This document shows, one piece after another, positions 1 to 55,645 of a stretch of DNA of 64,000 nt. The stretch is from Cristatella mucedo (Eukaryota > Bryozoa > Phylactolaemata > Cristatellidae): positions 186,001 through 250,000 of the forward strand of contig WPIO01000118.1 of the NCBI GenBank assembly GCA_009760855.2. Direction: 5' to 3'. The first letter of the stretch is position 1; every line of letters starts with the position of its first letter. The notes under the pieces are model-generated. The model saw only the letters and a list, made by a program, of their open reading frames with translations, had not been told where the DNA came from and ran no database searches. The translations under genes were made by a program, and so were the position numbers.

Positions 1-652
1 GAAGTACCGGTCATGTCCTCAGCAGTGTCAGCTACCGCGTCACGAGCAGCAGCAGTATTTGGTGGCTCATTGCTCGACATCCGGCGGCAGCTTGCCGACG
101 AAGTTGCTGAAAAAGCCGGCAACTTTGCCGGCGCATCACGGGCGATGGCAAAGTCAGCAAGACGAGCCCCAGGCTTTACGTCCCCAGAGTCGGGGCTCAT
201 GATTTCGGGTGGAGGAGCATCGCCCGACACGTTTGCGAAGCTCATGGGGGCATCACTAGCGAAGCTCATGACAGCATCGGCAAAGTGTCTCGTCTTGGAG
301 GCAGTGGGATGGGCAACACCCTCGTCAAGATCGAGGTCCGTCTGTATAGGCGTAGGCCTGGCTATCGTCATGTCCATGGAGATTTCGCCCAAGTCGGTGG
401 CGTCGTGCCGCTCAGCCATCACAAAGCTGCCACTGCTGCCGCCGGGCATCTCCGTAAGGTCCATGTCGGTGGCGTGCAGAATCGTTACACTACCGTCGTC
501 GGCAGCACACGTCCGTCGGCCACCTCTTTGCTGTGCCTTCGACGTACCGTGGCAGTTCTCAGGCACGGGGCGTCCAAGGGCACCTGCCTGTGGGATAGGT
601 GGGACGGCACCTCGGCCAGTGCTGGGCACATTTTCCTTGTCACATTCATTCA
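1..652 (-). CDS. KNL1: KNL1 exon 5, MELT motifs 4 and 5, open at the left edge
   Basis: The acceptor is CTTCTGTTGCAG|TG. The exon reads [10 protein letters not shown], then [16 protein letters not shown] and [14 protein letters not shown], then Ser/Ala/Pro-rich sequence with repeated MSFA. It is open to base 1 with no stop. A weak donor-like GTACTT at positions 7-2 is more likely coding sequence (EDMTGT). Sense codons fill the whole length, while the opposite strand gives only antisense reading frames. Confidence 0.85.
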
Positions 653-988
653 CTGCAACAGAAGACCAACGGGGGGGGGGTTAAGCCGTAACGGCTCACT
701 AGGTAAGGTGGTTGCTTTTCACGACCTCGGCCCCGAGGTCGTGGGTTCGAATCCTGCGGTGATCGATCCTTTATCGCCGCTGCAAGCGGTGGTGATAGCC
801 GTAAAGGCTCTTCTGTCGCTATTCAAAAAGAGGCTGTCATCTCAGCTATTATTATTATTATCATTATAAGATACGACCACACGAGCTCGGCGTCATAAAG
901 CTACCTCATGACTCATACCTAGTCATGTTGCACCTACCGAGAAAACCTAGAGTCGTGTCTTGGAGTGTGACTGACAGCTTATACACCG

Positions 989-1029
<41 letters not shown>

Positions 1030-1831
1030 TGTGTCAAAACCGTTTGTCAACCGTCTATACGATTCAACTCCACGACGAACAGCACGGCAGTCATTGCTAC
1101 GCTCTCTAGACCAGCTCTTGCTTATTTGCATTCGTGCAGTAAGCACATTAAAGCTGAGTGCTACTTCAAATAAAAGTGTATACATTTCAGGCACTTTGCT
1201 TACAAAATGAAACACTGGGTATCGGTTTACACTGAAATCATACTTTAATCACCAAAACTACAATGACAACAATTCACCGTATGTTCCATGCCTTCGTTAT
1301 TCTGCCGACGGCCAGCGAACACGGAAGTACGGCTAACCTCGAAGAACGTGGTATCAGTCTTCCGGCGTTGACCTGAGTGACTTAAGCACCACATTGACCG
1401 TGTTGCGTGACATGCAACTAAAAGCCCTCTCTCAGACTTAGCCACTGCAGTCACTCCGGCAGCCTTGTTTCATACCTAGAAGCACCCATTTGGCCACGGC
1501 TCCCCAACTGCTTTAGTACCAAGTGCATGTCAGTAGACCTTGCCTTCTGCTGTGTGAAAACAGCTCGACCTCTCTCACGTAGTGCTGTAGCAAGACCATA
1601 TTAACTCACCGGTGCGAGTAAGCTGTTCTCTAGATGCTGCACGTTTGGGGTCGAGGACAGCGATAACATTGGCTCTTGCAAAATTTTGCTCTTACACTTA
1701 CTTAGTTGCTGTTATTTGGTTCGTAAACATTTCTAAAATTATTTCTATAAAGTCCTATATCGGGCATATATACACTAATATATGTGTGTGTGTGCGTGCG
1801 TGCGTGTGTGTGTGTGTGTGTGCGTGCGTGC

Positions 1832-1872
<41 letters not shown>

Positions 1873-3355
1873 CAAGTGCAGAAGTATTGGAGGCCACCTA
1901 AACTGAATGGTGGACCCAAAAAGTTCTGATTAAGAAATCATAAAAACCTTATTGCAGTAATCATGCCAAGTACATCAAATTAACTTAAGCAGCATGCAAG
2001 CCAAGTTTTAGCACAAGTAAATTAATTTGTAGTGCTAAAATAAAGTTACACCACTGTGATAAGCAATTACATGTCTGAGCTGTTCTTGTATACAGCGAAC
2101 TATGCCTTTGCAAATATGTGCCTTATCGTTCTCCAAACGTCGAGCAAACTTGAGAAAAGCGATTATTTAAACACGATATGACCCACCTGAGCTCCGCGGG
2201 GGGCCTTCTATCCACTTTAACCCAGAGATACTCAATGGGATTCAGATCTGAAAATTAACTCGGCCAATCCGTTAGCGTAATGGCTCTTAACTAAATTCAT
2301 CAGTGTAGCGGAAAAACCTAGGTTCATTGTCCTGTTTAAAAGGAAATTATCTTCTAGACCACGTTAGGTACAGAAACGCTTTGGAGTAATTCTAAATAAA
2401 CATCTTGCGACATGATGCCAGGTATCAGCTAAAAAAGCCACCCCAGACCATGTACCAGGCGACACCAAATTCCCTCTTCAAATTTATATCTACAGAAGAC
2501 AATTATCAATGGGGCGAAGACATAGCCTTGCATACATTTTCAGTTACCAAAAATGGAAAATTTACATGTATTCCCTAATTCAATTTTTCTCCAGTCTTCG
2601 TGGGTTTAGTGTGCTCTAGCCCCAGCCCATTCCATAAAAGCCACTTTATACTTGACAGGCAGAAGTGGTTTCTATTTTACATTTGGAGCAAACATACCTT
2701 GTTATATAGTCGATGCCTGATCGTATCCTTACCAACTAGCTTCCCGGTAGCAGCTTAAGCATGAACACTCACAGGGGTGAAATGATGCTTAAAGATTCAC
2801 TCTTTATCAGTCGGTTCTAGCTCGTGTATCGACGACTAGGCACCCATCTCTTTGCATTATCGATGATTCCAGAAGTAGCCATCTTCTTCAGGTTTCGTGT
2901 CAAGGAAGTCTTGCTAATTTGAAATTCTATAGCAGTTGCATAGTTAGGAAGTCCCGTTTTGAGCAAAGCCCACATTCGGTCTTTCGTAAAACGTCATCAA
3001 CTATATAGCCATAGGCATGCCCATTAGCGATAGGGTGAGGTTAGACAATGAGCAAGCCGATGCACCGTTATTTTCATACTACTTTGCGTGTACAAGTACC
3101 TCCAAAAAAAGGACTGTAGTCGTCTTCGAGCAATATAAAATGGAGAAATAATCAGACCTCTTAAAATAAATTTTTATAGTCGAAGATGCTTTGTATCGTT
3201 ATTTGTATGTCGTATACACTGGTTTATGAAAAAGTCATCATGAAAAGCATCTTATTTAGGCACAAGCGCTCTTTGAGCGTAGGTCTCATGTTTCACGGTC
3301 GAATGCGAATGCCTACTCCTCAAAAATAGGGGATTGCCGATACTTTTGCTCACAA

Positions 3356-3438
<83 letters not shown>

Positions 3439-6400
3439 TAAAGACACACACACACACACACTTGAGCAAAGAAGTGTTGGAGAGGCTCCCTAAAATGGCC
3501 ACCGGACATAATAACTTGCCATCCTGATGAAAAGAACGTTAGTGAAATGTGCTGTAACAACGCTATGCATAATATAAATGAGGCTGTTAAATCATCTAAT
3601 ATTTATTTATGACTGCAGCAGTAAAAGTGTAATAGATTTTGCTCATAATTAGTGCATTAAGTATTAAAAGTCTAAACACCATGCAGTTGCTATGGATTTG
3701 TGGCATTAACAATAGCATTTCCAAACATTGACATGTCCATAATTTTTGTTAGTATTTTACTCTGTACAAGCTCTCTGGTCTCCGCAGACGCCTTGTCTCA
3801 GCAGACGCTGGGCATAAGGGGAGGTTATTCACTACCAACAGAAAAAAGGGCTTCATGGCGCTTAGATCAAGATGACTAGGTCAGCAAGTAGCCGACAGTA
3901 GCTTCCTGACAGCAAGTAGCCAATCTTTTCAGTAAAACTCGGGCTCTATGGAATGTTCTTCAGCAGAAGAAACAACACGGAAGCTGATGGCCTCTATGCC
4001 TGCCCAGACAAAGAGGTCATAAAGAATCGTAATGGAACGAGGGCACACTAAATGCAGAGTATTGATGTGAATTGACACAGATCATCCAAAAATACTCTGA
4101 GGCTTCCACTGCTATGCAGATGACACTCAGTTGTACCTTTACAGTGATCCCTCTTAACCCTCCAGCACGTCGAATTCTCTCAACTCCCTTGCTGCATGTT
4201 TTGATGACATCCGCACATGGATGGCAGCAAAATTTCTTAAATTGAATGGTGATAAAGCCAACTAAATGGTCATAGGTAAATAAAGTGTGTGTCAAATTCG
4301 AAAGGCTGACGCTCAAAATTGGCTCTGCCAAAATATCTCCTGTTGAATGTGCACGAAATCTAGGTGTCGTGTTCAAAAGTGATCTTTCTTTGGGCGACCA
4401 CCTAAGCTTCACAGTCAAGTCTGCTTACTTTCAGCTACATAACATCGCTAAAATTCGGGCTTGTTTAGACAGGGATACCACATCTAAATTGGTTCGTGCA
4501 TTTGTGACATCCCGTCTTGACTTCTGTAACTCACTGCTTGCTGGTCTACCAGCTTGGGCACTCGAGCACTTACAACTTGTGCAAAACTCTGCAGCTAGGC
4601 TTGCCTGTTGTGAGCATCAAAAATTGCCACATCACACCACTTCTCGCCGACCTGCACTGGCTTCCACTCAAGCAACGCATCGACTTCAAGGTTTTGTCGC
4701 TCACTTTTAGGTCCCTTCCTTCTTTGGCTCCAGCCTACCCATCAGATCTACTCCCCCACCAGGCTAAGCATCGTATCACCCACTTTTCGAAATCTAATCG
4801 TTTACTTATACCTCGGACGAACTTCAAACCCTTTGGAGATCGTGCCTCGGTTTTACCCTTTGTGTCGGGGCTTTGGTGAAGCCCGTGATGCACTGTGGCA
4901 CTATGTGCTGCAGGCAGAAGCAGTCGACGGGCGATGTACCGAGCCTCTGCCGAGCTCAGGGTGGTGCCCTACAGCAAGCCGAAGGTGAGTCGTGCCACGC
5001 ATATCTCTGCCGAGCAGCGTCGTTTAGTTTGCTCCCAGAGCCTGGAGCTCACCTCCAATTTGCGACATCCCCTGACTTGACCACATTTAAAAGGAAACTA
5101 AAAACACATCTATTTATCAGAGCTTTTGGTGGGTCCGTGTGATTCGTCACAGCATTTAGTGGGTCCATGTGATTCGTCCTTTACATGCTTATGCTTAAGC
5201 TTATGAAGGCTGACACTGTGCACACTTCCAGTAACCATATTTGCATGCTGACCCTTTGCAAGTCACCCCTAACCATGTTATGCTTGTTGTCATTGAGCAT
5301 GCTACCACTAACAATTCGATCTTGCTTCCTTAGCAGCAAATGTAAAGTGCCTAGAAAGAGATTGAGTTCTCTGAGGCTGCTATTTGCATAGTGCACTCAA
5401 AGCCAAAGCGGCTTTCGGTAGCCAACATACTTCATCTCAAGCAACAAAGAGAAAGTGAGAAGCATAGCTGAGTCAGGAGAGGAGTTGAGGTAGTGAGTAG
5501 TGAAAGTAGCAGCTCAGGACGGCTGGAGAGAATGTGCCATAGTCGGCAGCAGGAGTAGATGTTGCGTAAGAATTGTGGAAGTGAGTCCCAAAGTCTAGGA
5601 CCTGCAGAGCTAAAAGCTTCTATCGCCAACGGCCTTTAAGCGGAGGAATAGATCATGGAACTTTTACTAAAAATGCTACCAGTCGAAGGTTGTTGTTATG
5701 CCTGCCGCAGTGCCCAGCCTTGTGCGCGCAGTCAGGTGTCCAGCATGCACATTAAAGATGGGCACAGCAACGACATTGGGCACTCATAGACTCAATGCCG
5801 CTCGATGAGCAGTGCCAGGGACCGAGGTGCAACTGCCGATTGAGGGTGCTCCCGGGAGACACACCGAGCCCGCAAGGCGCTCGGCACAGCGAGCGTCAAA
5901 TCGCCACCTGACTACCAACGATCGACAGCTAGACCTCGCGCCGAGATTGCGACACTGCCCGGTAGACGTGCGTGGCGTGACTCACCTTCGGCTCGCTGCA
6001 GGGCATAACCCTGAGCGTGGCAGAGGTTCGGTACATCGTCTGTCGACTGCTTCTGCCTGCAGCATGTAGTGCCACAGCGCATAACGGGCTGTGCCAAAGC
6101 CCCGACACAAAGGATAAAAAGAAACCAACGCCATTCCGGCGCCGAACAGTAGTGTGGCCACGCCGGCGGTGTGCTAGTCAGCACTAGGCTGCACAACTCG
6201 TGACCCTAAGGACATGGACACAGAGTACACCACCGCGCTAATGAGAACACTGTATGCTGCCACGTGACTTGGTCTTACAAGAGGAGCAGCCATATCACTG
6301 GGGTAGGAAGTGCTCATAGCCAAGCCCCATTCGTTATGGAGGCACACTAGGTAAGGCGGTTGCTTTCACGACCTCTGTCCCGAGGTCGTGGGTTCGATTC

Positions 6401-9400
6401 ATGCGGTGGGCGATTCTTTATCGCCACTGCAAGCGGTGGTGATAGCCTTAAAGGCTCTTCTGTCGCTATACAAAAAGAGGCTGTTTACTCAGCTAGGATT
6501 TTTTTTTTATCATGCTCCAGCTAGCCCTATTATCCGGTTCTCATATAACGTTGTAATCATAATCTTGTATGAGCGGTTGCATGGCTGGCTTCGGGCAGAA
6601 ATTATTAGTAAACACTAGTACAAAAATATTGGCTTAACGAAGGCTTACAAGTGGTCTTATTAGACGAGTTGAGCGGTCTTATTAGACGAGTTGAGCGGTC
6701 TTATTAGACAAAGACCAGAGAATGCAGCATCCAGTCTCGTCCTACTTGAGTCCAAGATAAGACTGGCTACCACAGCCAAGGCTATGGCATTGTGCTTCCG
6801 CTGCTATGCATGTCGGGCTAGGCTCGGTATTGGCCTCTAACGTCCTATGGGGATGTGGCAGAGAGTGGAGAGTTCCTGTTGGAGAATGCTATCATACATA
6901 TCGAACAGCGCACGAGAGCAAGAGCAAGAGAAACGACTCGCGGTAGCCGAGTGAATTATCAAGATGCACATATTTTGTAATTTTAATGTCTACCGATGCT
7001 ATTCAACTCAGGCTCGCTCGTACGTATACTAAGGCAAACGCCTCAACATGCACGGTCGGTACAACTTGCCAGCTGGAAGAGCCCTAAGAACAGGCTCAAG
7101 TCACATGTTGCTTTGATAGGGTTTAGCATCAGGTCTTATTACCAAGGCGATATTATTAGTAAGAGGTCTTAGTAGCAGTTGACTGTATATAACGTAGCAG
7201 TTGACTGTATATAATGCAGCAGCAGTTGAGAACACTCTCTTTGACATGAACCATAAGCGATTGCTATGCAAGCTTTGCTGAAATAACCAAGTACTGAACT
7301 AGGTAAAACTTACTGGGTGACAGGATGCCACCTTTTCTGCCATCCTGTCCCCAAGTTGGTGGTCTACACACTTTAATCAATCTACATACCTGATATAATT
7401 CCACGGCCACGTGGGTGCAAAGCTCCAAAAGCATGCGTTTTATCATACCATTAAACACCCCCAGGCACTGTATGTTGCACCCAAGACAATACCAAATTCG
7501 ACGGGCTGCTTCACATTCACCGCCATCAGTGTGTACATTCCTTGCAGGAGAGAAAGCTAAGCAATCACAAAAGATTGCACATACATTGGGAGCAATCTAA
7601 CGGGATCTGACAGTTAATATATTTGGCAATAGAGTTGAAAAAGTTCAATTTGCTAAAAGGTAGGGAGGGATCAAAGCACATGTACAATTGCATTGTCATC
7701 TGCACAAAACTGTTGTCTATTGACATTAATGCTCTTAAATCTCTCACTGAGGAAGGACCGAAACCACTGAAGTGCAGTGGCACTGGGGCCCACACTAAAT
7801 GATAAGCGCTCAAAAGAGACTTGGTGATTAATAGTATCAAACGCTGCCGTTAGATGCAGCAGACTAGCAGAGGAACTTTGCATAGGTCAGAATTCCTTAA
7901 AAGGTTGCTATACACCCGAAACAGTCCGCCGATTGTGTAGTAAGCACCGAGTGACACAGCCCACCGGGCTTCGGCCACGTTTACAAATCGGTCTGAAGCT
8001 CCACATGATTCTTCAAGTCTGACCGACAATGCACGAAAAAACAAGGCAAACAAGGTAAGAAAATTAACAAATAAAAAATAAAAATAATTCATTTGTATAG
8101 CGCCCTAAGAGAACTTAATCTCTACCCCAGGTGCTTGACATATGCCTCGGGGACACCTTAACCCTGAACCAAACCAGTGTGGGCAAGGTTTCTGGTGCCA
8201 AGCTCACAGTGATTTCATCAATGGCGAGCAACTTAACTCTGGGACAAACCAGGGTGGCAAGCAAAATATGCCATATCTACCTATCTGACCGAGACACCAT
8301 AAACATGGTCACGAACAAATCTCACTCGTGGAAGGCCACACCTCGAGATTGATGAAAGCATGGGCTAAGAGGGCAGCTAGCACCCCACCTACTCTTTGGA
8401 GTAACCCCAACGGGAAAGCCAAACTCAACAGTTTAATCTTTTTTGGGAAGCTAGTGTGTATCAAAGCACCAGTATTATTAAGACATCACGTACATCTCTG
8501 CAAGACAAAGCAACAATGCCTAGTGACAAGAAGACAAGAACCTGAGAAAATGGTTCAGTGTCATTGCTAACACCTGCAAAGAGAGGTTCAATCGAAAGAA
8601 TAAAACCTCGGAGATATACCTGTAGAGATAGACAGATAGATAAATAGTCAGACTGACAATTCAAGATGAGCATAACATACCGGTCATGTCGCTGCACCTC
8701 GGCCATGATATCCTGATCGTTGGTAAGTGACCTTAGCTCAATTGGCTTGTAGTCTGCAACAGTCATCTCCATACTTTCATCATAATAACACGTGGTTAAA
8801 CCTTTGTGATCCCATCCTTCAGCATTATCGTCGTCGTATTGCACACTAATGGCATCGCCACAAACCGTTAACTGCATTGAGGTGTCGGCATCGTAGACGG
8901 TCTTATTGAACAGCAGCTCTTGTTTATTATCGCTGGGCCAGGCAGAGCCAGTAGCACGATAAGCAGTGACACTGCCATGTGCGTAATCCTTGGTGGTCTG
9001 GCGACTCTCATCCGAGCTGCTAGACGTCTCCACTGACTTGATGGGCCTTTCGTAGACGTTAGTCTATGCACAGATGGAATTAATAAGTGCTAACTTCTTA
9101 AATCAAGTTCAGGGCAAGTAATCACTCATGCTGTGTCACCAACCCATGGATCCACAAGTATCAAGGTACGCGAGATAGAAGCTTCTTATTGTGCTGCATC
9201 CTTAACGATATTATATTTTAAGAATATGCAAATTCGGACTGCTCTCACGAGCATACATTGGCTATCAGACCATGCCTCCAAAAATTAGACCAGATTATAA
9301 GCATCTACACGCCACATTAAAACTGATCTGGAAACAAAAAATAAATACTTAAGACAGGTGACAGCACAAAGGATAGACTGATAGTGATGGTGTAAGACAA

Positions 9401-12400
9401 GCCAGCAAATTCAAGCAACAATCAGACTATACCGGCCAATCTTTAACGGCATATAAGCCCAGATTGCAGACATCTGCATAGCCAAATGGCATGGAATGGA
9501 ATATAATATATCTCCTTATGTAGCTTCAAAGAGCCTCAAAGACTTAGTGGGTGTTAAGAAGGAGAGCTTTCTATAGCGAACTCAAAGCCTAAGCAACTTT
9601 CATTACACATTTGATAGCCAAAAGACTTCATCTCACGAAACAGAGATAAAGTGAGAAACATAGCTGAGCCGGAATGGCTCACTGGGTAAGGCGGTTGCTT
9701 TTCACGACCTCGGCCCCGAGGTCCTGGGTTCGAATCCTGCCGTGGGCGATCCTTTATCGCCTCTGCAAGCGGTGGTGATAGCCGTAAAGGCTCTTCTTTT
9801 GCTATATAAAACGAGTCTGTTAAATCAGATAGTATAGCTAAGTAAGGAGGGCAATTAAGGTAGTGAGTAGCATGGAGGTAGCAGCTCAGGACAGCTAGAA
9901 AAGATGTACCACAGTCGACAGCAGGAGAGTAGAGGTCGGTGAGTAAGAATTATGGGAGTGCGTTCCACAGACTAGGACCTTCAGAGCAAAGGTTTCTGCC
10001 ACCAACGATCATTAAGCAGAAGAATGGAACAACTAATGTATGTCTATAGATGACCTGAGAACACGAGAAGGCGGAAACCAGTGCAGCAGTTCAGCTAGGT
10101 ATGAAAAAGTCAAGCCATGGTGGGTCTTGTGGGTCATCGTAGGAAACTTTCCTCTATATCTGTTGATCAACCGGAAGCCATCGAAGCTCCTTCAGCAAAG
10201 GAGATAAATGGTCAAACCTCTGATTTTTTTAACTAGCCTTGCAGCCATAGTCATCACTAGCTCTGGTGGCCTAGTGACTTTTTCGGTAGCCCAGACAAAA
10301 TGGAATTACAATAATCTAGCCTAGATAGAACCAGGGAGCTAGGTAAATTTTGTGAGAGCACCGTGGTAGACAGTAACTAATCTCAAATAGGGATCGGACG
10401 GTATAGCCAGCTATGGAGGAGGTCTTCTTAATGAAACTTCCAAAATTTAGGCAGTTGTCAAAGACAATGCCTAAATTCCAAGCACATGACGGTTGCACAA
10501 AAGCATCATCTATTAAAAGAGCAGTCTTCTAGTCCAGCACCGCGCTTAGGGTGTCCTGAGAGTAGAATTTAAGCTTTATCGTTATTTCGTTGAAGGAAAT
10601 TTGCAGACATCCAGGATCAAATTTCTTTAGGGCAAGCAGTCAGTTTATCTTTCGGTCATTGCACCAGATTTGACGGTTTGAACGACAAATACAGCTAAGT
10701 ATCATCAGCATATAAGTAACATCCGACCCCATGGGTCTGAATCCCTTTTCCCAAAGGTTCAGTATAAATGGAGGCTGCAATGACCAAGAACAGACCCCTG
10801 TGGGACTCCCCAGGTGACTGGTCTGGTGGATGAGACAATGGACGAGATCCACATGACACGGATTGAACCCAATTGGAGAAGTACAATTTGAACCATTCCA
10901 GTGCCTCGTCTGCCTGAACGATCGTTGTTCTCGATCGTTAAAGTATAATACTGTGACCGATAGTGTCGAAGGCAGCTGATAGATCCAGCAAGGCCATGGC
11001 AGTGACATTCCTATCATCCTTGCTGCATGGAATGTCGTAGGTTACAGGGAGAACAGTTTCATTGGAGTGGTGTCACTTGACTACCGACTGAAATTTTTCT
11101 GGCGTGTACTACAAGCTGCTCAGCAGCAGTCTAAAAAAATTTAAAAAATCTTTGACGAAAAAGAAAGAAGGGAAACTGTGCGATAGTTTGCTAGGATCTC
11201 TGAATCTAATCCAGGCTTTTTAAATACCGGTCGAACGATAGCCGATTTGAAGGACTTGGGAACAATCCCATTATCGAGAGAACCATAAAAATCTGAGTTA
11301 TGGCTGGACTATATTTGTCTGCCAATCAAGAACACAGCGAGGATGGTATAGGGTTTACAGGAGACGGGCTCTTTTTTACTAGACTTTATTAAGATAGCCA
11401 CTTTGCACGCAGAAACCTCGTAAATCTCCTAAGAAAGGTCACAGGTTTCGACTCAACAGTGGCTTTAGTCGGAAGGGTCTTTATGGAAGTGAAACATGAG
11501 TAATATTTTTTCAAAAAAAAGCTGAAAACTTATCGACTGAGCCGTTAATATCCGAGGAGCAAGACCTCTTTGAGTAGGCAAGCAAATTGTTTACTGTCCT
11601 ATATATTTGTTTTGGGTTGAACTTGCAGGACTTCAGTTTTTGGGTGAAAAAAAAGCCCTGGCTTTTCTAAGCTTCTGGGTATAGACTAGAAAGAAGTGGA
11701 TAGATCGCAATTAGATCCAGACTTCTTAAAGCGGTATGCAAGCGAGCAAGCCTTAACATAAGGCACATGTTTGAAGTTTTTTCGTAAATTGAAAGGAATC
11801 TCCGCAACTCTTTACACTGCAGCAGTGAAGGTATCGAAGCTGTTGGCCGAGTCTGGATGCAGATCAAGAAGACCTGCATCGCAGAGTGATTTTAAAAATG
11901 TCTCCGAACAAAGCAATTCTTTTTAATTGCTGTCACTGGACAAACTCGGGGTTACCCTGCACGTACAAGGAAACAGAAGCAGTAACCAGACTGAGCAATG
12001 ATTTGAGGTGGTCAGCAAGGCAGACATCTTTAGTGATAACGAGATCCAGGATATGGCCATCGATATGAGTGGTATGATTAACGTGTTGGACTAAACCGAA
12101 GTTTTTCCGACAATCAAGAAATGAGCAAAACTGACAGCTGCCAGGATCGTCGATGTGAATGTTGAAGTCTCCTGGAATCAATAACAGCCTGACTCAAATC
12201 AGCCCATCTAAGCCTAGCCAAGAGTAAGCCAAGGAAGAGCCAGACCTTGACATTTTCAGAGCTTGCCAATACAGGAAGGCGAAGGAGCATGCAGGGTGAC
12301 CCGACAGCCCGACATGCCTTCAGGCCAGTCTAATGGGGAGGGAGACCATGGCCCGATATCTTTTCCAGGCTCCCATGAAGCCATGCGACTGCATATGTGC

Positions 12401-15277
12401 AAGCACTAGAGTGAATGCACTTCTATTTCAATAGGTAAAGCATTGTCAATAAGCAACAATGTCCATTTCATAAGAAACATCTGCAGGTTACTGTCACAAA
12501 TAAAAAATCAACTGCATCAATGGATAAAAGGTTTTTCGATTTATAAGTATTGACCAGCAATCGAAGTTTACCATTTCCATATATAGTTGTGTTGACGTTC
12601 GATTATCCACTGACGTTCCGGTGGAGGCAGCCAGTGGTGCAGTAAGCAAGGACTGGATGCTGGCTGCAGACAAGAACGGATTGCTACCGGTAGGCTCCTG
12701 GTGCTGCTGCAGCTCCTGGTGCTCGTCAGCATAACCAGTGCCGGCAGACATGGTGCCAGGCCTGCATGAACTGGCTGTAACGTCCACAAGCTCAGTGCTG
12801 AACAGCATGATAAACACATGAGTTCGCATGCAATGCAACAGCTATTAGCAAAGACCAAAATTAAAAATCCAGAGTAATATGCAACCAGGTTACGTGTGAT
12901 AATAGTAATAAACCTGTTACATTTTGAATGCAGCTAGGGCCAAGCACTTGAGTCTCATAAGGCAGAATGTCAAGAAAATACTTACAAAAATTGGTCTAAC
13001 AATCAAATATTTGCTTAGGCTACTTTCCAGAAGACATAAATGTTGGAAATAGGATCAGACGTTCTGACGACTTCCACATAAAATAAAAAACTGATTATGT
13101 AAACCATGCCTAACCTAGTTGTAAACCGGAAGCAGCAGATCTAAAGACAAATTTATCAATCTCTACATCGTATGCGACTTGTGTCCTAACTTCTTGAACC
13201 TTGGTATATCGAGGTACACGTGTGAAGCTTGTTGAGGTAAATGATTGTGACTTTTATGCAGCTTCACTTACAGCGTAGCTTTGTGCCTTGTAAATTCCAT
13301 AACTCAGCAAATACTTCACGGATCATAGTGAAATTTGAAATGCGAGTTCAGCTCTGCTGTACCACATTTTGAAAATTTATTTAATATTTCTGTTGGATAC
13401 GTTTTGCTATACAGATCTATAACTGCCGAAAATATAGTTCCATGGTGCTTGGTGACATGTATAGCGAAACATAACTTCTATGAAAAAATAAAAGTGAGAA
13501 ATTATACTGAGAAAGTACTAAACCAGGACAGCAATAGATTCACAAAAAGAGCAAAATGCATAGAATATATGAGCAACTATCAACACCAACGAGTAAAACA
13601 GAGGAAGCCTGGATTGCGGAAAATCAACGAGTGTGATTTTTGACAAACTCAAATATTTTGCATTTTACTCATTTATACAGATTTTGCAATATTTAGAATA
13701 ATAATAATAATAATAATAATTCACTTGATAAAGCACCCTCAGAGAACTCAATCTCTCTCTAGGCGCTTTACATTTGCTGTAAAGTGAAATGCAATTGAAT
13801 GGTAAGTAAAATCATGCTTGAAAAACAAACGAGATGTATGACTTTCAAGATTGTCATCATTAGGGTGGGCTCACCAGCTAGGACAGCAGACACTCAGGCT
13901 AGTCTTTCAAGCAAAGTTGGAGTTTCGCGATTTGTCACTGGTGTAGGCTGGGAATAAAACCTTTGCCTGGTGCCTTGAAAGAACTAAATCTCTTTCTAGG
14001 CACTTCACATATTCTCGGAAGAAGGAAGTCGATCAGTCTTTTTGTTCTGTTGTGGCTTTTTCGTGTGTACCTGCGAATAATTAAGTGCATGCTACTAGCC
14101 ACAGGGCATGCCAACCGGTGGCATGACTCGAGTGTCTTGATGTTTGCTTTAGTGATCAGGCCGAATCACAATACTTGTTTGCTTTCGTATGCTAAATACC
14201 GCGTATGTTGCTAACCCTTTGTTACTGATTCTCTTGCAGTGAGTTGTACAGCACCTAGAGAGAAATAAAGAAATAAAGTTATCTTAGGGTGCTAGATAAA
14301 CGACCTATCACTATTATCACTACTAATGCTGACTTCTTAATGAGGGGTCTGACAACAGCCTCTTTGAAGGATGCAGGGATGGGCCAAGAGGGTTAGTGGT
14401 CTTATTAGACTGAAAGATAAACTTCTTAGGTCGGCACAATGACCGCTAGGTATTGACTGAATAGTGAGCAGTTAAGGAGATGGTTGACACCTGCAGTTTT
14501 GGATTATGCACCTGTGATTCCACTAGGTATTTGTAGAAGCTAGACTTGGCCTTGGCTAGGGTAGATTAGTTCGACCTACAATAAATAGTGCTCGTAAGCC
14601 AGTCGATGGAAAGTCAGTCCTGATCTTTTGGTCACTTTTCAAGCTTTCGCCTAGTTGCCCTAACTAGTTAAACGGCTGCAGTAAACTATAAGCCATCTGG
14701 GACATGGGCATACAATATGCTTAGAGGAGTCAACTCATCCAGAACAGTAGCTAGTAACATAACGTAGCATTTTTGCAGACAACAATAACATCAAGGGACT
14801 TAAGCACTTGCATGCAACTGGTAGCTTACCATCAGCATCTGTTTCTGAAGAGCCATAGCCGTCTTTGACAAACTCTCTTCAACAAAAAATGATGGAAACC
14901 TGTACACATAAGGTAAATCAGACAACTGCAGCTCAAGCCAACTGCTGAGACATACTTGGAGCCTCTGTCCTATTAGATGGCTAATGAGTGAACACAAGGC
15001 ATTTGCAATAGGCTGACAGACTTAGAGGTACAACAGCAAAACAGGCTTGTGATAAAAAGGGTTAGACAATAAACAAAATAGAAAGAGTGGCCATATGATC
15101 CAGCCCCTATCCATTGATGGCAATTCCTGTTCTATATCAGGCAATAAGCTAGTAACGTTTGTTGGTTCTGATAATGTCAGCAGTAGCTTAATATGCACTT
15201 TCAGTTCGAGCCATTTATAAAGTTCACTTTGCGAAAAATACAAAACATTTTCCCTCACAAACCCCTCCCTCCCCCAC

Positions 15278-15360
<83 letters not shown>

Positions 15361-18300
15361 AAGAAGCTAACCACATCCATCTAACTAACCACATGCATCA
15401 GCCTTGACAATAATCCTAGATAATCAAGCATCTTTACAGAGGGACTTTAATCCATTCTTTGCAATGGTCTTCCCAATTATAAGCATATGCAGCTCTTGCA
15501 AAGACATGCCCACCATAAAATATATGAAAAAGGTTAGCTGATTTAACAGCCTCATTTGCATGGCAGAAAAGTGTTACCGGCTATTACCACTGCTTGCAGT
15601 AGACATAAAGGATTCCCCACTGCAGGACACGAACCCGAGATCAGGGTCGTGAAGAGCAAGTACCTTATATATCCTATGGCTTGGCAAAACATACACTCAG
15701 GTTAGATTTAGGACAGTATCGCCAACAATTACGACAGGCTAAGTGTCAATCTAGCCGTTCAAATGCAAGAAGAAATGCTGCTATTACTACTAGCAAGTCC
15801 CCCCCCCCCCCCGTAGAGCCTGACATGAAGCACGAACTTCCTTACACTTAAAGCTTACCCAAGGCATGCCGTTGTGCAACACAATAGCCTGTGATGCGAG
15901 CCAGAGCCCAAGCAGTGCTGATCGACCTTTTGGGGGCTCACAAATAAAATGATGTTGCTTTCCTTGTAGAACGAGGGGGGATGGCCATCAATAAATGCAC
16001 GATGCTAATTATGGGCAGAACGTGATCACGTGATTCGTGAGCATCTGCTGAAAGGAAGTAATAAGTTGTGTGTGCAGGTGGTTTTTCATAATGACCAAAG
16101 ACTTTTTCTTGGAGGTGAGCCAGTCCACGTCAATCATTCTCGCCTCCTGACATAGAGCGATCTCACGTGCGTTCGTGTTCGTTGCAGAATTCTTCCGAAA
16201 ACCGAAGTTCTTGCGAACATCATATACGTAAACGATACAGCTAAGACCTGTTTAAAGTTAATCTGATTCTTATTTGACCGTAGCTCGTAAGAAATTACGT
16301 GCCTATGGATATCTAAACGCTTATCGCTTCGGGCTGCTGGGTCTCACACGCCGGCGGCTGCCTTAGCTACGCAGGCTGCTAGTAACCTGCATGTTAATTA
16401 TGATCGTCAGCAGCTGTTATCGCTTCGTCATCGTAGATCAAATGCATTCCTAGATATTAATGCTGTTAAGCGGATTCGTAAACTATGCATTAACAAAAGA
16501 AAAGCACCCCGTAGACGCCGCGGTGGCCGGAACCGCCAGCTCAGACGCCGCTCGTTGGGCGGGAACTTCGAGCTGAGTACCCGCTATTTGGTATTCCTAG
16601 CATTGTCTCGAACCGCTCAGCACGCTCCCCCACATGCATCTCTGCGAATCTCTCTAACTTAGTGGTCATCAGGCCTGTTGTAACTCCATCGGCCAGACTT
16701 AACACTTGCCTTTGGAATCCTCAACCACTCTCAGATTAGCTCCTTACCTGATGATCCTTGTGATGATCTGGCTGATCGCTTCTCTCGATTCTTTGTGCAT
16801 AAGATAGACAAGACCAGAGAGTCTATCCCTACGATGACAACATCCCCCTAGAATGTTGTTCTCCAATTCCTGGCTGCACCTCTTTCATTTAAGCAGGTCA
16901 CTGGTGATCTCGTCCTGAAGTTCAGTTTCATACATAACTAACATTATTAATATGTCATTAGCCTCAGGTCATGTCCCAGCACCTTTCAAAAAAGCTGTAG
17001 TCAGGCAACTTCTCAAGAAAGTGACACTAGACCAAGAGAACTTGAGCAACTACCGCCCAGTCTCCCTTCTACTATTTCTATCAAAGACACTGGAACGGGT
17101 CATGGGGGACCAGCTGAACTCATATCTTGAAACTTCAAACCTTGCTAGTAAGTTCCAGTCTGGCTTTAGAGCTAATCACTCCATAGAGTCAGCATTGCTT
17201 AGGGTGTACAACGACCTACTTAGGAATGCAGACATGGGTAGAGTGTCTCTGCTTGTTTTGCTCGATCTTTCGGCAGTTTGTGATACCATCGATCACAAAG
17301 TTCTTCTAGAGCGCCTCTCATCTCGCCTGTGCATCACTGGCACTGCTCTGCAGTGGTTCAGGTCCTATCTCAGTGGGAGACTCCAGAGTATTGACGTGAA
17401 TGGAAAAAGATCATCTGAAGTACCTCTAAAATATGGAGTACCTCAGGGCTCCGTGCTAGGTCTGCTTTTTTTCACGGTTTATACTCTCCCTCTTGCTGAT
17501 GTGATTGCCAAGCACAATCTAGGCTTTCACTTCTATGCGGATGACACTCAGTTGTACCTTTGCTTTGATCCCTCCCAGCCTTCGAGCACCTCGCATTCTC
17601 TCAACTCACTTGCTGCATGTATTGATGACATCTGCACATGGATGGCAGCAAATTTTCTAAAACTAAACGACGATAAAACGAACTTGCTAGTTATGGGGAA
17701 CCCAGTAAGATTCAGAAATTGAAATAGCTGACGCTCAAAATGGCTCTGCCACCACATCTCCTGTTGAATCAGCTCGAAACCTAGGTGTCATATTCCAAAG
17801 CGACATCTTGTTAGACGACCACATCAGCTCCACAATCAAGTCTAACTACTTTCAGCTACATAACATTGCTAAAAGTCGGGCTTGTTTAGATAAGGATACC
17901 ACGTCTAAGTTGGTTGGTCCATGCATTCGTGACATCCCGTCTTGACTTCTGCAACTCACTGGTCGCTGGCCTACCGGCAAGTGCAATCAGGCGATTGCAG
18001 CTGGTGCAAAACTCTGCAGCTAGAATTGTCTGACGTGAGCGCCGAAGTTGCCATATCACACCACTTCTCGCCGACCTGCACTGGCTCCCTGTTAAGCAGC
18101 GGATCGACTTCAAGGTTTTGTCGCTCACTTTTAGGTCACTGAGATCGTGCATTTAGTTCGCATGCTCCCAAAGCCTGGAGCTCCCTCCCGACTTGTGTCA
18201 GAACATTCCCTGACTTGACCACATTTAAAAAGAACTTGAAAACACACCTATTTAGGACAGCATTTAGTGGGTCCCTGTGATTCGTCCTTCATGCGCTTAT

Positions 18301-19339
18301 GCGTGCTGACACTGTGCATGCTGCCACTAACCACATTTGTATACTGACCCTGTGCATGTCACCCCTAACCATGTTATTAATGTTTATCAAGCATGATATT
18401 ACTCACCATTCAATCGCGCTTCCCTTTGCAGCAAATGAGCAGCGCCTAGAAAGAGATTGAGTTCTCGGAGGGCTTTATCTAGTGCATTATTATTATTATT
18501 AATATTATCAATAACTGGCATTTGGCAGAGAGTAGACCGGACGTCTCATGAACCCCCGTTCCGTTTTTTGTAAAGTTTTGGTAAGTCAGTAGCTGAAATG
18601 GATCGGGATTTAAAGTCTAACCACGTCCAGAAAACCAGCAGATTCGGAAAAATCAGTGCAAAATCTGTTGTCTCTAAATATGCAGATAGATTCATAAGCC
18701 TGTAATCTATTAGCTCTCAGGACGACATGAATGCAAGCAGAGTGGACAGAGAAAAAGTGCTTTTCGCGAAGAAAAAGACCGGCAGGCATTTGGCTACTAA
18801 ATAAATTCTACAAGGGATGACCGGATGCACTCTATCAACAAACCAGGCCAACAACTAAAGCGTTTGGTGGTTTCACTGACGGTTCTCCTTCATATCTATC
18901 GAGCCAAGAAGCTCGACTACATTAACACAGGCAAATGGCTGCATAAGCCAACCAAGCTAGCAGCCGAGCCGTCCGAGGAGCCACTCCACTTCCCCTGGCC
19001 GCACAGATCCAGCACTGGCACATGAACCAGCCCTGATTTCGTTGTGCATTAACGGCAGAGATGATTTAAACGAATCCAACGCACGTGTGCAGCCTTCGGC
19101 ATAACGCCCACCGCACAGCATGAGCTACCAGCTCAGGGGCACATGACCACTTACTTGACAAGGCAAGTGTCAGCAAAACTAACTCTCCGTGACAGTCGCT
19201 TCTTCTTAGGCTCGACGGGCTCTGGTTCAGCAGCTGGCTTTACCGTGGCTGTCAATGGATCGTTTGCTAACTGCAAAGACGAAGTAGCTAGAGTTTTTGC
19301 TGGAACGCTGTCCCAGTGTGCACGACTAACAGACGCCAT
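1..19339 (-). CDS. KNL1: KNL1/Spc105 kinetochore scaffold, 5' part (partial gene)
   Basis: KNL1 is the outer-kinetochore scaffold that docks PP1 and, through phosphorylated MELT motifs, recruits Bub3-Bub1 for the spindle checkpoint. Exons, in transcript order: 19339-19155, 12797-12572, 9063-8681, 1674-1610, 652-1. They join in phase (phase 2, 0, 2, 1) to at least 503 residues with no stop. The PP1 motif RRVSFAD lies at residues 51-57, close to its place in vertebrate KNL1. A segment IQSLLTAPL (about 109-117) resembles the conserved NTLLSAPI-like segment. MELT-type motifs are MEMT 135-138, MQLT 200-203, MEMT 235-238, MDLT 350-353 and MDMT 379-382. Some have an upstream T-hydrophobic-aromatic module such as KTVYD. 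No SILK motif is seen. The coiled-coil and RWD domains would lie beyond the left edge. Identification rests on motif combination and spacing; total length and 5' UTR are unknown. Confidence 0.85.
681..868 (+). mobile_element. SINE1, tRNA-derived
   Basis: Shows an A-box-like GGCTCACTAGGTAAGG and a B box GGTTCGAATCC, then the family body (TTTATCGCCGCTGCAAGCGG and AGCCGTAAAGGCTCTTCTG) and a (TTA)n tail. It is intronic in KNL1; the end nearest the exon is a run of ten G bases about 20 bases from the exon 5 acceptor. Confidence 0.85.
991..1034. repeat. (GT)n microsatellite
   Basis: Uninterrupted GT repeat in KNL1 intron 4. The reading frames across it are artefacts. Confidence 0.98.
1610..1674 (-). 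CDS. KNL1: KNL1 exon 4 (65 bases)
   Basis: Exons 3 and 5 do not fit in phase without an intervening exon of length 2 modulo 3. This 65-base interval meets that need. It has acceptor TTTTGCAAG|A, donor CACCG|GTGAGT and an open frame reading [18 protein letters not shown]. The donor is strong; the acceptor tract is only moderate. No motif is recognised. Confidence 0.65.
1782..1870. repeat. (TG)n microsatellite with GCGTGC interruptions
   Basis: Compound TG repeat in KNL1 intron 3, abutting the end of a Tc1-type element. Confidence 0.97.
1871..3357 (-). mobile_element. Tc1-type DNA transposon remnant, copy 1
   Basis: On the minus strand a decayed DD34E transposase can be followed: a helix-turn-helix-like region near 2950-2870, the second catalytic Asp in QDNEP (about 2330), and [10 protein letters not shown] with the catalytic Glu (about 2240-2215). 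In-frame stops and shifts show it is dead. End sequences AAGTATTGGAGG (1891 side) and AAAAGTATCGGC (3350 side, complement) are matching terminal inverted repeats. Both ends touch microsatellites. Confidence 0.75.
3356..3461. repeat. (TA)n then (CA)n microsatellite
   Basis: TA repeat 3356-3440 with two small interruptions, then CA repeat 3443-3461. A Tc1-end-like sequence (AAGAAGTGTTGGAG) follows directly. Confidence 0.97.
4105..5395 (+). mobile_element. L2 lineage A retrotransposon, 5'-truncated
   Basis: Starts within the reverse transcriptase at a YADDTQLYL-type motif, continues through FLKLNGDK, an open stretch with [17 protein letters not shown] and [17 protein letters not shown], and ends with the lineage A 3' UTR (CTAGAAAGAGATTGAGTTCT). 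Stops and frameshifts are present. An unrelated segment at about 4845-5030 interrupts it. Confidence 0.85.
4845..5030 (+). repeat. Unclassified interspersed repeat, copy 1
   Basis: Inserted into the L2 copy. It contains GTGTCGGGGCTTTGG and CTGCAGGCAGAAGCAGTCGA and ends near CCGAAGGTGAGTCGTGCC. The flanks CTCGGTTTTA and CGTCGTTTA may be a decayed target duplication. An inverted copy lies 0.9 kb away. Confidence 0.55.
5400..5660 (-). mobile_element. L2 lineage B fragment, 3' part
   Basis: Minus-strand match to the end of the lineage B reading frame ([18 protein letters not shown]) and its tail region with GAAAGCCGCTTTGGC. Confidence 0.8.
5955..6135 (-). repeat. Unclassified interspersed repeat, copy 2 (inverted)
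   Basis: Inverse orientation relative to the 4845-5030 copy, sharing about 150 bases including CTGCAGGCAGAAGCAGTCGA and CCGAAGGTGAGTC. Similarity fades on both sides. Confidence 0.55.
6335..6510 (+). mobile_element. SINE1, tRNA-derived
   Basis: ACTAGGTAAGGCGG, GGTTCGATTC and the AGCCTTAAAGGCTCTTCTG body are present. KNL1 intron 3. Confidence 0.85.
6653..6709. repeat. 22-bp tandem repeat, about 2.6 copies
   Basis: The unit GGTCTTATTAGACGAGTTGA plus GC starts at 6653, 6675 and 6697. A related duplicated motif, GCAGTTGACTGTATATAA, occurs at about 7165-7220, so the 6.6-7.2 kb stretch may be one decayed element. Confidence 0.8.
7610..7920 (-). mobile_element. L2 lineage A fragment (reverse transcriptase)
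   Basis: The minus strand reads AAFDTINH and [15 protein letters not shown], then YADD-region remnants, close to the [13 protein letters not shown] and [13 protein letters not shown] of the copy at 16.3-18.5 kb. Confidence 0.8.
8075..8260 (-). mobile_element. SINE2, degenerate
   Basis: Shows the SINE2/L2-A shared 3' end (TGTATAGCGCCCTAAGAGAA) and CATATGCC; the tRNA part is too decayed to read. Confidence 0.5.
8681..9063 (-). CDS. KNL1: KNL1 exon 3, MELT motifs 1 to 3
   Basis: The acceptor is TGTGCATAG|ACT in phase 0 and the donor GACCG|GTATGT. The first codon supplies the T that completes MEM|T from exon 2. The exon holds TNVYERPIK, an acidic/Ser cluster, then [14 protein letters not shown] and [17 protein letters not shown]. 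The two latter blocks are internal repeats typical of the MELT array. It spans 127 codons plus two bases. Confidence 0.88.
9490..12190 (-). mobile_element. L2 lineage B retrotransposon, long inactive copy
   Basis: Transcribed from about 12190 down. It begins in the endonuclease C-terminus ([21 protein letters not shown]), passes the linker and reverse transcriptase ([18 protein letters not shown] at about 10715) and the C-terminal region ([19 protein letters not shown]), and ends at the lineage B tail near 9495. There are many stops and shifts. A SINE1 is nested at 9669-9833. It fills most of KNL1 intron 2 (9064-12571) and crosses none of the exons. Confidence 0.85.
9669..9833 (+). mobile_element. 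SINE1, nested in L2 lineage B
   Basis: Has the A-box region GGCTCACTGGGTAAGG and the B box GGTTCGAATCC. It is flanked by a 9-base target duplication, ATAGCTGAG (9660-9668) and ATAGCTAAG (9834-9842), one mismatch apart. Confidence 0.9.
12190..12570. other. KNL1 intron 2, unassigned stretch
   Basis: No recognised gene or repeat. Confidence 0.5.
12572..12797 (-). CDS. KNL1: KNL1 exon 2, LLTAP segment and first half of MELT 1
   Basis: The acceptor is TGCTGTTCAG|C and the donor ATG|GTAAAC. The 226-base exon completes the split codon left by exon 1 (AA plus C) and then reads [10 protein letters not shown] onward, through a Gln/His/Glu-rich stretch and [10 protein letters not shown], to QLYMEM. 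A second acceptor, TAATAG|CTG at about 12839, would extend it in another phase (see the candidate exon at 14.9 kb). Confidence 0.75.
13695..14300 (-). mobile_element. L2 3'-end fragments, two decayed pieces
   Basis: The (AAT)n tail at 13700-13722 followed by GAGAACTCAATCTCT and GCGCTTTACATTTGCTG is a lineage A 3' end on the minus strand (to about 13830). GAAAGAACTAAATCTCTTTC at 13977 starts another. At about 14245-14295, CACCTAGAGAGAAATAAAG is a plus-strand 3' end. Confidence 0.65.
14320..14720 (-). mobile_element. L2 lineage A fragment, upstream of the reverse transcriptase
   Basis: Matches the minus-strand copy at 57.9-58.6 kb (for example AGCTAGACTTGGCC and CAGTCGATGGA). The piece [15 protein letters not shown] corresponds to [15 protein letters not shown] of the main copy. 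Confidence 0.7.
14831..14900 (-). CDS. Candidate optional KNL1 exon (70 bases)
   Basis: Lies in KNL1 intron 1. The acceptor is TTATGTGTACAG|GTTTCC and the donor CTGATG|GTAAGC. The frame, entered in phase 2 from exon 1, is open and reads [20 protein letters not shown]. It leaves in phase 0, which fits exon 2 only if exon 2 uses the upstream acceptor TAATAG|CTG. The peptide is not recognised as KNL1. It may be an alternative exon or a chance match. Confidence 0.25.
15281..15357. repeat. (CT)n microsatellite
   Basis: Long pure CT repeat in KNL1 intron 1. Confidence 0.98.
15533..15662 (-). mobile_element. SINE1, degenerate
   Basis: On the minus strand the SINE1 body and a B-box remnant are recognisable; the A-box end has decayed. 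It is followed at 15799-15812 by a run of 14 C bases. Confidence 0.65.
16280..18515 (+). mobile_element. L2 lineage A retrotransposon, most complete copy
   Basis: A 5' coding remnant (about 16380-16690) carries [20 protein letters not shown] and an Arg/Gly-rich stretch, as found before the endonuclease in L2/CR1 elements. The endonuclease is mostly deleted. From 16740 the linker [15 protein letters not shown] leads into a 256-codon open reverse transcriptase (16952-17722) with [41 protein letters not shown] and [10 protein letters not shown]. The C-terminal region is frameshifted (DFCNS near 17950) and the 3' UTR ends in (ATT)n at about 18485-18510. Not functional. Confidence 0.9.
18540..19140. 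other. KNL1 intron 1, unassigned stretch
   Basis: Nothing recognised between the L2 tail and KNL1 exon 1. Confidence 0.5.
19155..19339 (-). CDS. KNL1: KNL1 exon 1, start codon and RVSF motif
   Basis: The ATG at 19339 has G at -3 and G at +4. It opens 61 codons plus two bases. The exon ends in [11 protein letters not shown] before a donor reading CAA|GTAAGT (donor GT at 19154-19153). A basic stretch, KKKRLSRR, precedes RVSF, as in KNL1 proteins, where it supports PP1 and microtubule binding. The frame stays open a short way upstream of the ATG through an Ala/Gln run, so a start slightly further 5' cannot be excluded. Confidence 0.85.
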
Positions 19340-24201: not shown

Positions 24202-25300
24202 TCAGGGGAGGCAAGTGAAAGCACCGCCTTTGCTAACCTGCCGGCTAAATATGGCACGAGCTTTGCCGCAGTGCCGAGCCGTACATCTTTCTACCGCGCC
24301 ACAAGTCTCTAATGTGGGACCAGTCTCTGCCACCGCACGAGGCTTCCGGGCATTCGCCCTAACGCCGGCCGCTGTCTTCTGGACTGCAACCGGCGTCGCC
24401 TCTCGCGTCGCCCGTAAGGCAGATGCCTCGAGCCTCGGCTTTTGTACGACTGCCTTTATCAGCTCCGTTGGCCACTCCTGCGCCATTGCCTTCGGTCTCT
24501 CGGCATACACCTGTCGTGCCTCCTCGACGGGCGTCTCGCTCATGTCTTGTGCTGGCCCCTCGCGCGTCTCCGCCACCATCAGTTCGGAAACTGAGGCGAC
24601 CACAATGTGCGCCACCATCTGCTGCTGCCACTCCGCGCTATTCGCCTCCGGCAGCTCGGCAAGCATCTCCTGTGCCTTCTCGACGAGGGTCTTGCCCGCC
24701 TCCTTAGCTGGCGCTTCACGAACTTCCGCCGACGCCGACTCGCTGGCCACCGGCACTGTCTCGCTACAGGTGCTTTCCCAGCCGCCGCCACCTCTCTGGC
24801 AGACAGAGGCTCCTCTCTGGCAGACACAGTCGTCTCTCTCGCAGACACAGCCGTAGCTCTGCCGGACCCTACCAACTCTCTGTCGGACGCTGCCGTCTCG
24901 CTGCCGGTAGCTGCCGTCTCGTTGCAGGACGCTGCTGTCACTCTTCCGGACGCTGCCACCTCTCTTCCTGACGCTGCCGTCTCTGTAATGGATGGCTCCG
25001 CCTCACTCGTGGACGCCGCCTCTGCGGGCCCTGCCGCCGTCTCTGCCGCCGCCTATGCGGGATCCACCGGCGTCTCTGCTGACTGTGCCTTCGTCGCCCG
25101 GTGCACCGCTGGCGATTGCTACTACCGCTTCCGGTCGCTCTTATCAGCCTCCTTAGTCCAATCAGCGTTTACCGAATCCGAGTGCAGCAGTCGCGCTTTA
25201 CCCGCCTCCACCTCCAGCCGCTTCTGTGCTATCGCCTCCGCTTTCCTGGCACTCTTTAAGTTCGACCGCCGAACCCTCTCCTCTCTTCAGGGCTTGCACA
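24202..25300 (-). pseudogene. Decayed Glu/Ala-rich reading frame inside the LTR element
   Basis: The best reading is in two minus-strand frames. One (about 25300-24760) has in-frame stops, a helical charged stretch (KSARKAEAIAQKRLEVEAGK) and seven-residue repeats. The other, open at 24756-24202, includes EKAQEMLAELPEANSAEW and ends before the polypurine tract. It may be a Gag-type coiled-coil protein; no zinc knuckle or enzyme motif is seen. Confidence 0.4.
24790..25015. repeat. 21-bp minisatellite, about 10 copies
   Basis: Units of exactly 21 bases built on GCTGCCGTCTC, diverged from one another. On the minus strand each encodes seven residues of the type ETAASGR, so the phase is kept in the LTR element's reading frame. 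Confidence 0.75.
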
Positions 25301-52400: not shown

Positions 52401-52439
52401 TCTCTGCCGTGGTCTGAGGCTGTGTGATCGTTAGCGTGC

Positions 52440-53146: not shown

Positions 53147-53290
53147 GCCGGTTTGGCCAGGTGGTTAAGGTGCTCACCCCGACCAAGGTCTGGCCGTGGT
53201 CGTGGGCTCGAGCCCCGTGGCATATGTGAAGCGCCTGACTAGAGATTAACTTCTCTTAGGGCGCTATACAAATGAATTTTATTTATTTAT
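53147..53290 (+). mobile_element. SINE2, tRNA-derived
   Basis: Best copy: TGGCCAGGTGGTTAAGG (A box), GTGGGCTCGAGCCCC (B box), CATATGTGAAGCGCCTGACT, then AGGGCGCTATACAAATGAAT and a (TTTA)n tail. Confidence 0.9.
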
Positions 53291-53506
53291 ATTTAAGCTA
53301 AAAATGCTTGACTACATTGACAGCTGACATATCGCTGGCCAGGCGCTATACAAATGAATTTTATTTATTTATATTTAAGCTAAAAATGCTTGACTACATT
53401 GACAGCTGACATATCGCTGGCCAGGCGCTATACAAATGAATTTTATTTATTTATATTTAAGCTAAAAATGCTTGACTACATTGACAGCTGACATATCGCT
53501 GACCAA
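53261..53506. repeat. 82-bp direct tandem repeat, three copies
   Basis: Units start at 53261, 53343 and 53425 with GCGCTATACAAATGAA and run to GACATATCGCTGGCCAG. The copies are almost identical, the third differing near its end (GCTGACCAAG). Each unit contains the last bases of the SINE2 plus flanking DNA. Confidence 0.95.
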
Positions 53507-54114: not shown

Positions 54115-55645
54115 CTAGCAGCCTTCGCCCAGTTTCCCTTCTTCCTTTCTTGCTAAAGATTCTTGAAAAAATTGTCGCTAAGCAGCTAGTTGAAAATATT
54201 GAAAAGAATGAAATGTCAGAAACATTTCAATCGGGTTAGAGAGGCAGCACACCACTGAAACTGCTCTCCTCCGTGTTAACAATGACATTCTATGCGGCAA
54301 CGATGACGGGAATGTCACTGCCCTAGCTCTGCTAGATCTATCAGCTGCCTTCGACACTATTGATCACGATGTCCTACTTGAACGATTGAGAACAACGATT
54401 GATCTGGCAGACGAGGCACTGGCATCGTTTAAATCGTACTTGCCTGACTGTGTTCAATCCGTGTCGTGTGGGGGTCAGGTGTTACCCACGACACTGGTCG
54501 CCTGTGAAGTCCCTCAAGGGTCCGTCCTCGGTGCCCTGCTGCTCTCCATTTATACTCAACATCCAGGAAAAGTGATTAAGGCCCATGGATATCACTTTTA
54601 TGCTGACGATACTCAGCTGTATTTGTCATTTAAACCGTCGGAATCTGCTGCAGCAACTGAAAAACTGAATGCTTGCCTTGCCGACATTCGATCCTGGATG
54701 TCGGAAAATTTCTTGAAACTAAATGACGATAAAACCAAACTGCTGCTCATAGGAGTGTAGCTGGACTAAAAGGCTTTGCTTTTCTAATAGGTGATGCTGT
54801 TGTGCGACCATCACCAAGCACTCGAAATTTAGGTGTCGTTTTCGACAGCTGCCTAAATGTTAAAAGCTTCATTCAGAAGACTGCTTCCAAAGCTGGTCAT
54901 CACATCCAATTCCTATCCAAGATCCTACCTATCTATGTAAGATTAGGAGCTGTCTTCCACAGTGGCTTGCAACAAATTTAACTAGCTGCTTAGTTCTGTC
55001 TCGGCTTGATTATTGTAATTCCCTACCAAAAAACAACTAGGCCACTGCAGATGGCTGTGAATTCGGCTGCAAGGCTAGTTTTTCAAGTCCCAGAGGTTTG
55101 ACCACGAGTCTCCTTTGCTAAAAGAGCTAGGATGGCTGCCGGTTGATCAACGGATACAGAGCAAGGTTCTTACACTGACCCACAGGGCCCGCCACGGCTT
55201 GGCTCCTCCATATCTAGCTGAACTGCTGCACCAGTTTCGGCCTCCTCGTGCCCTCAGGTCCTGTATGGACAATAAACTAGCCATTCAATTCTTCTGCTTA
55301 AAGACCGTTGGCGACAGAAACTTTGGCTCTGTAGGTCCTAGACTGTGGAACTCGCTTCCACAATTCTTAAGCAATGACAACTACTCTCCTACTGCCGACT
55401 GTGTCTCATCCTTTCCAGCCAGCGGTACTGAGCTGGCCACTCACTACCTCAACTGCTCTCCTGACTCTGCTATGCTTTCCACTTTCTCTTTGTTGCGTGA
55501 GACGAAGTCTGTTCGCTACCAAATGCGTACTGAAAGCCGCTTAGGCTGTGAGTGCGCTATACAAAACTCTCCTGCATAACACCCACATATTCTTGATGGC
55601 TTTGTGGAGTTACAGACAGAGATACATTACATTGCATTAGCAGCT
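54115..55645 (+). mobile_element. L2 lineage B retrotransposon, 5'-truncated, first of a pair
   Basis: Starts in the RT (LLSFLAKILEKIV-like), with an open frame at 54386-54760 containing [30 protein letters not shown] and [15 protein letters not shown]. The C-terminal frame at 55115-55579 reads LGWLPVDQRIQSKVLTLTH to AIQNSPA and a stop. The tail is ACATTACATTGCATT. Confidence 0.9.

Follow-up and report, generated by a model that had tools for sequence, protein, structure and literature searches.

A very probable KNL1 (Spc105/CASC5) locus in the bryozoan Cristatella mucedo

KNL1 is a scaffold protein of cell division and contributes to the correct separation of chromosomes. Its RVSF motif is a docking site for protein phosphatase 1 that phosphorylation inactivates under the control of Aurora B; the RWD domain of the protein binds the Mis12 complex. 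The yeast proteins Spc105 and Spc7 share the general layout of the KNL1 described here. According to PMC7614552, Bub3:Bub1 is recruited once Mps1 has phosphorylated the MELT threonines, and the mechanism based on Ser-His-Thr after the MELT is thought to be restricted to vertebrates. Rapid evolution of KNL1 is described in PMC7614552 and PMC5579357, where a 2015 study by Tromer et al. is cited. The original prediction for the locus treated here likewise took KNL1 to diverge fast.

This locus, on the minus strand of a Cristatella mucedo contig (hereafter C20), is very probably KNL1 as judged from its sequence, with the 5' third of the gene running from position 19339 leftwards out of the window, that is, the whole stretch of 64,000 nucleotides that was analysed. 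Window positions equal contig positions minus 186000. The predicted gene spans about 56.6 kb, from 19339 of the window to near C20:148692 on the minus strand, with 19.3 kb inside the window. The assignment rests on an RVSF within a basic N-terminal stretch, on five motifs of the MELT type and on an RWD domain at the C-terminal end, the exons of which are phase-compatible.

Compared with human KNL1 (CASC5/AF15q14), the RVSF near the N terminus and the MELT motifs are common to both proteins (the human side in part after PMC7614552), and the C-terminal RWD domain aligns with the human structures 4nf9 and 4nfa along most of its length. Human KNL1 has 19 MELT-like motifs according to the same paper, whereas the window exons of Cristatella have five; Spc105 and Spc7, for which 5 and 8 are given there, likewise have few. 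In contrast to the human protein, the Cristatella one shows no Ser-His-Thr after these five MELTs and no SILK in exon 1, and its MELTs are distributed over several exons, one of them being cut by a splice junction. The best PDB matches of the Cristatella RWD domain were human KNL1.

Exons and motifs inside the window

Exon 1 (19155..19339, minus strand) starts with an ATG at 19339, encodes, close to the N terminus, a basic stretch that contains the PP1-docking motif RVSF (RRVSFAD, RRVSF codons at 19175..19189), and ends in phase 2 with a GTAAGT donor after 19155; no SILK motif was found in this exon. Exon 2 (12572..12797, minus strand) has its acceptor before 12797, includes the stretch IQSLLTAPL, which resembles a stretch of vertebrate KNL1, and ends with LYMEM and a GTAAAC donor after 12572. 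Exon 3 (8681..9063, minus strand), with its acceptor before 9063, begins with TNVYERPIK, and the first MELT-type motif, MEM-T, is put together at the junction of exons 2 and 3 with the T from the first codon of exon 3. Two further motifs, MQLT at 8877 and MEMT at 8772, lie on the minus strand within exon 3; the top-scoring donor of this exon is the phase 2 site after 8681. Exons 1, 2 and 3 are in phase without a stop over 264 codons plus 2 bases, with small extra exons in between being possible. The protein of exon 3 gave a single match among the best candidates scored in the search of the genome (572 Mb, 688 contigs), namely its own locus.

The remaining two motifs, MDLT at 464 and MDMT at 377 (within ISMDMT), belong to a large minus-strand exon that extends from 652 to 1 and on to C20 185999 or 185889. 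In total, the MELT array of KNL1 is represented by five motifs in the assigned window exons, none of which (0/5) is followed by Ser-His-Thr, the subsequent residues being NVY, VCG, VAD, EMP and IAR; such an absence is consistent with an animal outside the vertebrates or with a loss. The RRVSFAD and the five M(E/D/Q)(L/M)T motifs that had been noted on the minus strand were all located. Of the five phase-consistent exons claimed alongside them, four are supported, whereas the fifth, expected in the interval 653..8680 (minus strand) linking exon 3 to the 652 exon, was not found, and the best splice sites of the two flanking exons clash in phase.

In exon 3 the donor with the highest score is 8681 (7.7, phase 2), whereas the acceptor that scores highest in frame for the 652 exon as a whole (7.1) needs phase 1; the gene would accordingly use an additional exon here or a splice site of lower score. 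Weaker alternatives are the exon 3 donors 8658 (score 3.0) and 8574 (4.1) in phase 1, and a phase 0 combination of the donor 8698 (3.6) with the acceptor 587 (8.0). Three ways of searching the interval from 8680 to 653 for an exon that would close the gap gave no clear winner. The highest in rank of the candidates with fitting phases, 7540-7314, was rejected, KNL1 features being absent by eye, as was 7652-7585, which by eye has a reverse-transcriptase-derived look. The best score in the 653-8680 interval (17.2) belonged to the candidate 1372-1278, the phases of which misfit the best donor of exon 3; it contains KTDTTFF, which is faintly like a human KI motif, one of those near MELT1 in vertebrate-type KNL1.

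Elsewhere in the window, the minus strand carries an exon for the beta subunit of an AMP-activated kinase (AMPK1_CBM, E 2e-9; region of 50139-50477 and 52092-52430), upstream of which a frame that contains MGNSNSAAG, with no Pfam match, may be the first exon. LINE-like reverse transcriptase fragments occur on the plus strand at 16919-17719 and 54212-54757 (RVT_1, E 1.2e-25 and 5.2e-18, respectively). A minus-strand open frame of 265 codons at 24202-24999 includes a tandem repeat with a 21-bp unit (24813-24984) and had no Pfam match at E 0.1, and an 82-bp tandem repeat at 53260-53505 consists of three copies with 99% matches. An Rfam scan of the window at gathering scores returned nothing, and 40% of the 224 kb examined matches another part of the same 224 kb.

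The middle of the gene and the RWD domain

To the left of the window, further open minus-strand exons were found at C20 184897-184464, which contains the [MILV][ED][MILV]T-type motif LDVT, and at C20 181047-180760. A chain based on codon usage and splice sites proposes exons between C20 180.7 and 155 kb, the top-scoring of which, 160990-160868 (ARALDCRIEALQQQRRAEEPTAEELAHYEKQRCELEQTSQ), appears helical, charged and coiled-coil-like by eye, tentatively suggesting that coiled-coil exons may precede the RWD domain. This model-based chain is weak evidence because 11 exons assumed to belong to the same gene served to train its codon model, and the tentative middle exons, including 160990-160868, gave no match to a KNL1 profile.

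Five open, phase-compatible exons with AG acceptors and GT donors were assigned to an RWD domain on the minus strand of C20. RWD exon 1 (154870-154719), with a weak acceptor (1.9), came from a weak tblastn lead, in which the human C terminus matched C20:154872-154720 at E 6.8 among many chance matches. RWD exons 2 (152397-152294), 3 (151786-151659), 4 (149552-149427) and 5 (148801-148692, stop included) were chosen by phase and likeness by eye. The original prediction had named the DNA left of base 1 as the place to look for an RWD domain, and five same-strand exons there indeed encode a domain like Knl1_RWD_C. With exons 1-4 joined, the best Pfam family was Knl1_RWD_C at E 0.0012 and 19.4 bits, and with exons 1-5 joined it was again Knl1_RWD_C at E 0.0013 and 19.3 bits, both below the curated Pfam cut-off of 27.8 bits for this family. 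The top two PDB matches of the joined domain were both human KNL1, 4nfa (E 0.009, query residues 4-189 aligned with 5-193) and 4nf9 (E 0.011). A Smith-Waterman alignment with the human RWD domain scored 98 against 34.6 +/- 6.2 for shuffles, 0 of 2000 of which scored as high, a significance that is overstated because resemblance to human KNL1, judged by eye, partly guided the choice of exons.

Taken singly, each of these pieces is weak. The similarity score of RWD exon 1 alone was equalled by 7 of 100 shuffled queries; among phase-compatible candidates, RWD exon 2 ranked 25th of 63 by similarity, RWD exon 3 second of 86 (in a tie with its own shorter variant) and RWD exon 4 first of 64. With the first exon omitted, RWD exons 2-5 scored 51, and 27 of 2000 shuffles scored at least that much. 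When the human RWD domain was used in a splice-aware chain search over 46 kb, the score was 106 for the minus strand, 84 for the plus strand and 96 for the reversed sequence, compared with a mean of 98 and a maximum of 150 for 40 shuffled queries; it was uninformative because splice-site terms dominated the score, and the fixed-chain shuffles and per-step ranks were therefore used instead. Searches by pattern for words conserved in the coiled coil and the RWD domain gave nothing or one chance match, and the Pfam match to Knl1_RWD_C was no longer reported once the tentative middle exons were placed ahead of the RWD exons. Across the whole genome, Knl1_RWD_C drew no match at E 0.001, and at E 10 the KNL1 locus, whose RWD domain is cut over exons, was absent from the matches. 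On balance, though not by the Pfam cut-off, a C-terminal RWD domain appears to be present.

The profile comparison that had been suggested for the joined protein came out divided. Its RWD part has Knl1_RWD_C as best Pfam match, albeit below the cut-off, whereas the N-terminal part drew no KNL1 model of any weight: for the N-terminal 265 residues MELT_2 was reported at E 5.5, below UPF1_1B_dom (0.028) and Pcf11_C (0.29), and a comparison of 264 N-terminal residues with the PDB yielded no KNL1 chain.

Alternatives to a single KNL1 gene

If the RVSF and the MELT-like tetrapeptides had emerged by chance from six-frame translation of noncoding DNA, similar words should be frequent in random sequence, and for the bare MELT pattern this is so. 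In its six frames the window has 9 occurrences of M[EDQN][LMI]T, compared with 3.15 on average per sequence in a set of 60 first-order Markov sequences of the same composition, and the pattern is weak on its own because of this chance expectation. Words of the type [RK][RK][VI]SFA, on the contrary, are expected 0.017 times per window in these 60 sequences. MELTs preceded by an upstream element (Thr/Ser plus an aromatic or aliphatic residue, looser than the Txx-aromatic element of PMC7614552) number 5 in the window, whereas the 60 Markov sequences average 0.93 and reach at most 3, an enrichment that is supportive only because the pattern was composed after the exons had been seen; 4 of the 5 lie in the claimed exons, and the neighbouring 140 kb contain 2. 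Together with the shared phase of exons 1-3 and the RWD domain downstream on the same strand, these figures make an origin by chance extremely improbable. Two neighbouring genes, one with the RVSF and MELTs in the window and an unrelated one downstream with an RWD-like domain, could also be imagined, considering that the middle, C20 from about 180.5 to 155 kb, is bridged by a model-based exon chain; but the strand is shared, the order is right and both halves indicate one family, and this arrangement is accordingly regarded as hardly probable.

A decayed or partial KNL1 copy at this place, with the working gene elsewhere in the genome, would be consistent with the difficulty of joining exon 3 to the 652 exon and with a second RWD-like place on another contig, C87:399579-399824. 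The latter reached 24 bits in the genome-wide Knl1_RWD_C search at E 10 and had Knl1_RWD_C as its best family in a Pfam scan (14 bits, E 0.055). However, a stop interrupts its frame within the match, nothing was found for it in the PDB, and its alignment with the human RWD domain scored 27, no better than shuffles (mean 27.8), and it was rejected as a rival RWD domain. Of 14 control genomes, 3, each of them prokaryotic, likewise gave below-cut-off matches in the Knl1_RWD_C search, indicating that such matches arise by chance. At the locus on C20, no stop or frameshift occurs within the assigned exons, AG/GT ends are present, and the exon 3 protein matches its own locus alone among the best candidates scored; a pseudogene is thus very unlikely. 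The claim that this is the KNL1 of the species has instead gained support from the RWD exons left of base 1, which lie on the same strand, in the right order and in compatible phases.

Predicted function and significance of the locus

Transcription of the KNL1 gene would start at about 19339, run leftwards along the minus strand beyond the window and end near C20:148692. By analogy with known KNL1 biology, the RVSF of the protein would dock protein phosphatase 1 and be turned off by phosphorylation, its MELT threonines, once phosphorylated by Mps1, would bind Bub3:Bub1 and run the spindle checkpoint, and the RWD domain would anchor it to the Mis12 complex at the kinetochore. A more particular reading, in which a divergent animal KNL1 does without Ser-His-Thr after the MELTs and without SILK beside the RVSF, distributes its MELTs over several exons with one made by splicing, and could alter its number of Bub3-binding sites by alternative splicing, is rather unlikely. 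Narrow keyword matching, which says little, found no literature on the intron/exon layout of KNL1 MELT motifs in metazoa; nor did it find any on lamprey KNL1 MELT, which again says little.

The locus is a real and otherwise ordinary gene, the peculiarity of which is the difficulty of recognising it, and it adds one KNL1 to the known family. A call based on motifs foretold a domain beyond the DNA in view, and the species gains a KNL1 locus with usable exon coordinates. For the fast-evolving KNL1 family, absences from catalogues may be failures of annotation.
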